From a bacterium (Candidatus Blackallbacteria) CG13_big_fil_rev_8_21_14_2_50_49_14 (GTDB lineage: Bacteria > Cyanobacteriota > Sericytochromatia > UBA7694), in assembly GCA_002783405.1 (NCBI GenBank), contig PFGG01000044.1, forward strand, positions 1 through 40,480: 40,480 nt of DNA. Direction: 5' to 3'. Position 1 is the stretch's first letter; each line of letters starts with the position of its first letter. The translations under genes and the position numbers were made by a program. Under the pieces are notes generated by a model. The model did not search any database and had not been told where the DNA came from. It saw only the letters and a list, made by a program, of their open reading frames with translations. This document shows positions 38,892-40,480 of the stretch, one piece after another.

Positions 38892-39680
38892 CTAAGACTC
38901 TGAGGCCATATCCTGTTTGCGTTTGCTTTGAAGATTCTGGCTGACATCCTTGGCAAGGGTCACAAAATCAGAGGGGATCATGATCAAGGTGGTGGTATTG
39001 TTTTCAGCTCCCACCTCTGAAATCATCTGCATGCGCCGCAATTCAAGTGCAGCAGGGTTTTCTGCTATTTGGCGCGATGCTTCGGCCAGTTTTTCAGAGG
39101 CTTCAAGTTCGGCTTCTGCTTTAATAATCCGCGCCCGTTTTTCACGATAGGCTTCAGCTTCTCGGGCCATGGCCCGCTGCATGGAAGAAGGAATTTCAAC
39201 ATCTTTCATTTCGACCATTTCAACCTTTACCCCCCAGGGATCCGTGGCGTCGTCCACAATCTGGCGCAAGGTAGCATTGATCGAGCTGCGCTCTTTCAAA
39301 ACTTCGTCCAATTGATGCTGGCCAATAATGTTTCGCAAACAGGTCAAGGCAACTTGGTAAACAGCTTCACTGTAATTGGCAACACTGATCAGGGCTTTTT
39401 CAGGATCTGTGACACGGTACCAGAGCACTGCGTTGACTTTGACGGTTACGCTGTCTTTGGTAATGGTTTCCTGCTGCTCTACATCCACTGTATTGGTGCG
39501 GATATCCACCTTGCGATCCCATTCAAAAACAGGAATCAGAAAATAGAGACCTGGCCCCCTGACACCCACAAAACGTCCCAAACGAAAAACAACTGCACGC
39601 TGATATTCTTGGGCGATACGAATGCTGGAAATAATCAGGAAAAGTAGAATGACAAAGATAATAGGTAAAATTCCTGGCAT
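38892..39680 (-). CDS. Slipin / stomatin-like SPFH (band 7) protein
   Basis: 262 residues. An N-terminal membrane segment (about 4-20) is followed by an SPFH domain: E-Y-Q-R-A-V-V-F-R-L-G-R, G-P-G-L-Y-F-L-I-P and R-T-N-T-V-D-V. A helical Ala/Glu region (about 170-215) follows, as in slipins. These proteins form membrane-bound rings that organise membrane domains and are often paired with an NfeD protease partner. No NfeD gene is visible here. The ATG has GGAGG five bases upstream. Confidence 0.92.
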   Translation of the reverse strand: MPGILPIIFVILLFLIISSIRIAQEYQRAVVFRLGRFVGVRGPGLYFLIPVFEWDRKVDIRTNTVDVEQQETITKDSVTVKVNAVLWYRVTDPEKALISVANYSEAVYQVALTCLRNIIGQHQLDEVLKERSSINATLRQIVDDATDPWGVKVEMVEMKDVEIPSSMQRAMAREAEAYREKRARIIKAEAELEASEKLAEASRQIAENPAALELRRMQMISEVGAENNTTTLIMIPSDFVTLAKDVSQNLQSKRKQDMASES

Positions 39681-39713: not shown

Positions 39714-39742
39714 ATTATACGCCCTTGAAAAAAGGAAAACAA
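39714..39742 (-). promoter_or_regulatory. Promoter of the slipin gene
   Basis: TTGTTT (39737-39742), 17 bases and a perfect TATAAT (39714-39719) on the minus strand, 34 bases before the ATG. The -35 touches the last bases of the upstream RNA's T-run. Confidence 0.55.
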
Positions 39743-40480
39743 AAAAGAGAAGAACTCCGGCGAACCTTAAACTTCCCGCGTCCTTAGCAGTCTCATGGAG
39801 TCTTCATCGTTGACCGGCGGGGCCATTCCATCTCAGGCGCCCCGGTTGCACTCCTGACGTTTGAAACGCCTTCAGCGCACCTGACACCGGGCCTTTCAGC
39901 CCGAGCTGCCGGACACGACTATCGGAACCCGAAGATCCCGATCCTCCTCCAGACTTTCATCTGGGTACTTCAGGGGCTTTCCCCTGGCTCGTCTGTGCAA
40001 AACCGATTGCTACCGCTTCTGCCTGGGCCTTCCTGCTGTTTTAACAGCTTCAAGGCTTTTCACCCGAACCAGATCCGTAGTTCCTGTCGCCAGAAACCCG
40101 CTCCCCTCCTGTACTTCATTCCTTCAGGGTGTTTCACCATCCGCAGATTGACCACCGTTACCGGCGCCTGCCCCTCTTACCGTTTTTACGGTTTCAGGGG
40201 GTTATAACCCTGCGTGCAGTGTTTCCGGTGTTGCCACCAGAACTTGACCCTCCTGGATTTGGCCCTTCAAGGATTTCTCCCCGTCTGAAACTTCTCCGGC
40301 ACTTCTGCCCGACTGCCTTCTTGCCCTTATTCCCTTGCGAGAACCTGGCTTCAAGGCTTTGCCTCTTCAGATCGGATCGGCTGGCTGAACGCTGCCTTCC
40401 TTCTTGGACTTCCGACCGGGACTTACACCCGGCCCTGCGTGACGCTTTGTTTAAGCTCACTCGGAGTTCGTAATATTCAT
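39741..40480 (-). ncRNA. Large structured RNA (about 720-740 nt), class unidentified
   Basis: No credible gene covers these bases, but the minus strand folds well by hand. Three nested helices join the two ends: 40462-40469 with 39752-39759 (GAACTCCG, 8 bp), 40449-40455 with 39766-39772 (CTTAAAC, 7 bp) and 40441-40445 with 39778-39782 (GCGTC, 5 bp). Inside are hairpins with GCAA loops (40225-40240, 40330-40343), GAAA loops (39949-39964, 39888-39903) and a 9-bp stem with a C-UUCG-G loop (39921-39942). A further 7-bp helix pairs 39877-39883 with 39834-39840. Several stems contain G-U pairs that would be A-C mismatches on the plus strand, which fixes the strand. It ends in a T-run at 39741-39746. 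I found no group II intron domain V, RNase P or tmRNA marks. The 5' end may lie just outside the window. Confidence 0.8.

Follow-up and report, generated by a model that had tools for sequence, protein, structure and literature searches.

Among the large structured RNAs of bacteria, ROOL forms a homo-octameric cage and OLE has a membrane protein partner. ROOL is a large, ornate noncoding RNA of about 660 nt that has its own gene and no known function; it is carried by phages and prophages, frequently close to tRNA islands (PMC12286853). GOLLD, a giant ornate RNA that often exceeds 800 nt and is likewise of unknown function, is phage-borne and also often located near tRNA islands (PMC12286853). 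ROOL and GOLLD both assemble into RNA-only cages, and OLE, found mostly in Bacillota (PMC12054373), forms a dimer (PMC12286853).

The window analysed is a complete contig of 40,480 nt (G000:C44:1-40480), and the RNA described here occupies its last 740 bases, on the minus strand. The RNA abuts the contig end, so the promoter of this copy falls outside the window. The first-pass annotation had read these 740 bases as a large structured RNA whose ends are joined and which fits no recognised class. This reading agrees with the lack of a database match, the massive covariation and the lack of a conserved reading frame reported below; the RNA is indeed large, and only its length needs a small correction, since the predicted transcript (40471 to about 39741) is slightly shorter than 740 bases.

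At the gathering score, the Rfam 15 covariance models gave no family that matches the RNA in the window or at 23 other loci, the sole match being a tRNA in locus L023, and chance matches only were obtained for the window RNA at E-values up to 10. In a literature search of incomplete coverage, on Sericytochromatia together with noncoding RNA or Rfam, no report of such an RNA was found. The new RNA resembles ROOL in being a large, ornate, structured bacterial RNA with its own gene, and differs from it in leaving the ROOL model of Rfam unmatched, in its multiple copies at scattered genomic loci, in its plan of repeated arms, and in its setting, with no phage or viral match and a single tRNA in the eleven loci scanned. 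It is a giant ornate RNA as GOLLD is; unlike GOLLD, it does not match the respective model, has no phage context, and is built of four repeated arms, whereas GOLLD has a conserved 3' region. OLE, of about 600 nt, is also a structured RNA of bacterial genomes; the differences are again an unmatched model, another phylum and the many copies. HEARO, tmRNA, RNase P RNA and the group I and group II introns have only the size range in common with the new RNA; their models gave no match at the gathering score and, on the window, none at E-values up to 10 either, including the models of the group II catalytic core. No IscB/TnpB-type reading frame, as would accompany HEARO/omega RNA, was recognised among the neighbours, six of which were scanned with Pfam. 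By these comparisons no known family admits the RNA as a member; it shares with ROOL, GOLLD and OLE the loose label of a large ornate RNA.

The ends of contigs C57, C43 and C66 carry sequences identical to the first 78-82 or the last 55 bases of the RNA. Matching contig ends are the pattern that an assembler leaves at repeated sequence, and they were the first sign of a family. A full-length relative with 76% identity is present in a congeneric genome (G001:C25), with partial relatives elsewhere. A covariance model (R1) was built from ten aligned copies of the central part of the RNA, an alignment that folds into 40 pairs, 24 of them with compensatory changes. This model matches 25 places with scores of 113-194 bits: six in G000, the genome of the window, ten in G001, one each in G002 and G003, and seven in G004. 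Contig-end fragments add a second G000 copy (C43 or C57, plus C66) and one G001 copy (C45), so that the search for homologues in related genomes proposed with the first-pass annotation yields about 27 copies of an RNA of about 730 nt.

All five examined genomes of one Sericytochromatia family (Cyanobacteriota) contain the RNA. Thirteen other genomes of the class gave no convincing R1 match, and neither did any genome outside the family in a sample of 292 from the phylum, where the best score was 24 bits, compared with 113 bits for the weakest copy. Four weak outside matches were examined and discarded as chance, as three fall within coding frames and the fourth within a simple repeat; one of them, in genome G009, spans 53 nt inside a reverse-transcriptase-like coding frame and does not contain the loop motif. 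A GTDB-wide scan of contigs for an exact pattern gave matches only in Candidatus Sericytochromatia, with low sensitivity, as the pattern caught three copies. Relatives were found neither by BLASTN in plasmid and phage collections, nor in viral contigs with two sequence patterns or with a neighbouring protein as the query. Among the genomes searched, the RNA is confined to a single family of non-photosynthetic relatives of cyanobacteria.

Several copies depart from the usual arrangement. A variant at L057:3720-4365 (G000:C10, about 40.7-41.4 kb) folds well (-255 kcal/mol) and lacks the usual promoter, 5' element and end helix; its end helix is another one (CUGCCUGCCA / UGGCAGGUAGACAG), and the genes on either side encode a luciferase-like flavin enzyme and a Nudix-like protein (names assigned by eye). 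At L062:1814-5162 (G001:C53), a pair of copies with 98% identity flanks one AAA-ATPase-like / PD-(D/E)XK gene, as if the unit had been duplicated around it. At L024:2150-4106 (G004:C226), two diverged copies form a direct tandem about 200 bases apart, each with its own promoter.

The window RNA has a minimum free energy of -303.8 kcal/mol (40480-39741, minus strand), compared with -257.6 +/- 7.5 kcal/mol for 20 dinucleotide shuffles (z -6.14), and when folded alone it gives approximately the same picture as the consensus of 22 complete copies. These copies (667-918 nt, median pairwise identity 78%) constitute alignment A4, which draws on draft assemblies of five genomes and is therefore dominated by paralogues. 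RNAalifold predicted 143 pairs in A4, with a compensatory change in 94, and we added four pairs to obtain a model of 147. In this model 95.5% of 3215 cells are paired, compared with 80.9 +/- 0.4% in shuffled alignments and 36-49% when the partners were slid. Covariation in an alignment of homologues had been named as a check of the first-pass annotation: the 147 pairs show 498 double compensatory cells over the 22 copies, compared with 138 +/- 10 in shuffles, and on none of five measures did any shuffle reach the value of the alignment. When all column pairs were scanned without recourse to folding energies, the top 18 stacked covarying helices all fell within the model.

The three nested end helices, initially described as 8, 7 and 5 bp long, are present in the minimum free energy structure as P1-P3 (Table 1), and each of them covaries. 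In P1, three of the eight pairs are changed on both sides; some copies have ACGAAC/GUUUGU at this helix and others have AUGAGC/GCUCAU or AUGCGC/GCGCAU. P2 is 98.5% paired across the 22 copies and is longer in the single-sequence fold, and a G-C pair of P3 is replaced by A-U in seven copies. At least eight further hairpins had been described in the first-pass annotation, and the minimum free energy structure contains well over eight.

Table 1. Predicted parts of the large RNA in the window (minus strand)
Feature	Position	Strand	Description and evidence
Predicted transcript	39741..40471	-	begins at the first end-helix base and ends in the T-run; 22-copy alignment
P1 end-joining helix, 5' strand	40462..40469	-	8 pairs with 39752-39759; 95.5% of cells paired
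P1 end-joining helix, 3' strand	39752..39759	-	followed by T-run; 22-copy covariation
P2, 5' strand, conserved core	40449..40451	-	pairs with 39770-39772; 3 of 3 pairs change on both sides
P2, 3' strand	39770..39772	-	pairs with 40449-40451; covariation
P3, 5' strand	40442..40445	-	pairs with 39778-39781; 98.9% paired
P3, 3' strand	39778..39781	-	pairs with 40442-40445; covariation
P4 hairpin	40416..40432	-	100% paired; covariation at two pairs
Arm A	40263..40408	-	outer helices round 3x3 purine loop, hairpin, stem, inner hairpin, third hairpin
Arm A inner hairpin	40316-40356	-	same 3x3 loop; alignment consensus, covariation and single-sequence fold
Arm B	40121..40256	-	plan as arm A; inner hairpin 40171-40200; core of covariance model R1
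Arm C	39965..40114	-	plan as arm A; inner hairpin 40027-40056; consensus, covariation and fold
Arm D	39790..39954	-	similar plan, loop strands exchanged; inner hairpin 39849-39886; outer and inner helices covary
T-run, putative terminator tail	39741..39746	-	T-run at the same position in 21 of 22 copies

The body of the RNA is a series of arms. Arms A, B and C share one plan, in which an outer helix pair flanking a 3x3 purine loop is followed by a hairpin and then by a stem that holds an inner hairpin, in which this loop recurs, and one more hairpin. The consensus of the loop motif is 5'-C ARG A / 5'-U GRA G. Arm D has matching parts with the loop strands exchanged, and its stem is supported in some copies only. 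A covariance model of arm B, rerun with overlapping matches excluded, matches a part of arm A (40284-40375; 20.8 bits, E 1e-6), the region of arm C (39947-40065; 17.3 bits, E 1e-5) and the inner hairpin of arm D (10.1 bits); over 41 kb of other loci, all its matches with E < 0.01 fall inside copies of the RNA. The loop with its flanking helices occurs 4-14 times per copy, compared with about 1.4 times in shuffled sequence. Model matches of 36-54 bits from a second set were rejected: they share about 42 nt with the main match and make the arms look more alike than they are. Similarity between arms was judged instead on the non-overlapping scores of 10-27 bits. A swap test with the stem of arm D was only weakly positive, since the pieces cut out for it were too wide. 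There is good support for arms A-C as homologous modules, and arm D is probably another module of the same kind.

Transcription signals bracket the RNA in nearly every copy. TTGAC is located 35-37 nt before the first P1 base in all 21 copies that have upstream sequence (chance about 0.03 per copy), and this distance sets the transcript start assigned to the window copy. A TA-rich -10 box and an AT-rich upstream segment hold the same register across copies, and a T-run follows the 3' strand of P1 in 21 of 22. Because of this bracketing, the RNA is probably the product of a free-standing gene with its own promoter and terminator, and P1 probably joins its genuine 5' and 3' ends. Most copies of one subfamily (e.g., L058:4040-4126) also have a conserved sequence (CATAACC..ATCTTAGTAT) in the spacer that separates the -35 box from the -10 box, which suggests a binding site for a shared regulator.

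The genes next to the RNA vary from copy to copy and include those for slipin, phosphofructokinase, a BNR-repeat lipoprotein, a HIT protein and an AAA-ATPase, among others; there is no fixed partner gene, tRNA array or viral signal around the copies. In the window, a slipin-type SPFH/Band 7 gene (38892-39680, minus strand) begins 60 bases after the RNA. By their gene neighbours, five loci are common to two genomes, four of them to G000 and G001 (C66/C25, C65/C8, C70/C56 and C57/C45) and one to G002 and G004, which indicates that these copies were inherited in place. The unit also duplicates, as four G001 copies at four different sites are 95-99% identical. Their identity stops abruptly, in the AT-rich upstream segment on one side and just past the T-run on the other.

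Such abrupt limits of identity, together with the number of copies, would also be produced by a selfish, non-autonomous mobile element, i.e., a promoter-RNA-terminator unit copied by the machinery of the host or of a parasite, with a fold that serves its own spread. The slipin gene points in the same direction, since in G001 its counterpart keeps the promoter-like box but immediately follows another gene, with no RNA in front. Nevertheless, we consider a selfish element unlikely: neither terminal inverted repeats and target duplications nor a linked transposase or reverse transcriptase gene were seen in the flanks by eye, the G000/G001 and G002/G004 loci are syntenic, G002 and G003 yielded one copy each, and the purifying selection on the fold at a median identity of 78% is unlike that of a decaying element. 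A long cis-regulatory leader of the downstream gene is less probable still. The nearest called downstream reading frame is close and co-directional in 13 of 22 cases, and the HIT gene comes after the RNA in both G002 and G004; however, the nearest frame was called in the opposite direction in the other nine (the calls were mechanical, and at least one, in G002, took a spurious frame over the HIT gene), the downstream genes (slipin, HIT, kinase, BNR-repeat lipoprotein) are unrelated, a T-run stands at the end of the RNA in 21 of 22 copies, and the slipin gene behind the window copy has a promoter-like box of its own.

The size, the complexity and the closed ends would fit a catalytic RNA, such as a ribozyme or an RNA derived from a group II intron or from another catalytic RNA. 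This seems improbable, since models of the group I and group II introns, RNase P and other ribozymes remained unmatched even at E-values up to 10, the promoter and T-run are those of a free-standing gene, and the G009 match inside a reverse-transcriptase-like frame is weak, short, coding and devoid of the motif. That the region is a cryptic protein gene or a chance structure can practically be dismissed. Antisense open frames of 100-250 codons do exist in single copies, but a search of six frames in 22 copies found no frame common to them on either strand, in line with the initial remark that the region holds no believable protein gene, and chance is excluded by the covariation.

In our preferred interpretation, to which we assign a probability of roughly 0.6, the RNA represents a previously undescribed class of large, independently transcribed, trans-acting structural noncoding RNA. 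Transcription would start at P1 from a strong sigma-70-type promoter, P1-P3 would clamp the ends of the transcript, and the body would fold into four arms that repeat one plan. Each arm would have outer helices round a 3x3 purine loop (5'-ARG/5'-GRA), one hairpin, and a stem whose inner hairpin repeats the loop motif, usually with an A-rich apical loop. We speculate that the repeated loops and the A-rich apical loops pack against each other into a compact pseudo-symmetric particle, which could be a structural scaffold or the core of a ribonucleoprotein needed in high dose. Action in trans is suggested by the diverse neighbours and by the RNA's own promoter and T-run; the elaborate conserved fold, its occurrence in many copies with no protein gene linked to them, and the inner module repeat point to a possible structural or scaffold role. 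Counted against this interpretation are the narrow distribution in one taxonomic family, the at least four recent G001 duplicates, which a selfish element would give as well, and the G000 C10 variant that lies between genes with neither the promoter nor the usual end helix.

A more tentative proposal concerns the origin of this structural RNA: a module of about 150 nt may have been duplicated internally to give a pseudo-four-fold symmetric particle made of a single chain, which then became a high-dose multi-gene family in one lineage. ROOL and GOLLD assemble from several chains, whereas duplicated modules would achieve the equivalent within one RNA molecule.

Only a small number of classes are known for very large structured RNAs of bacteria, and those that were studied proved surprising, forming RNA-only cages or dimers (PMC12286853). 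The RNA reported here would extend this list by one class, from a lineage of Cyanobacteriota that is uncultured and distinct from the photosynthetic cyanobacteria. Its approximately 27 copies provide an unusually good alignment from just five genomes, and a secondary structure backed by covariation, with a built-in repeat, makes both origin and symmetry testable. The RNA is a direct target for cryo-EM, which could address whether symmetric particles are the rule among large natural RNAs and whether such symmetry can originate within a single chain.
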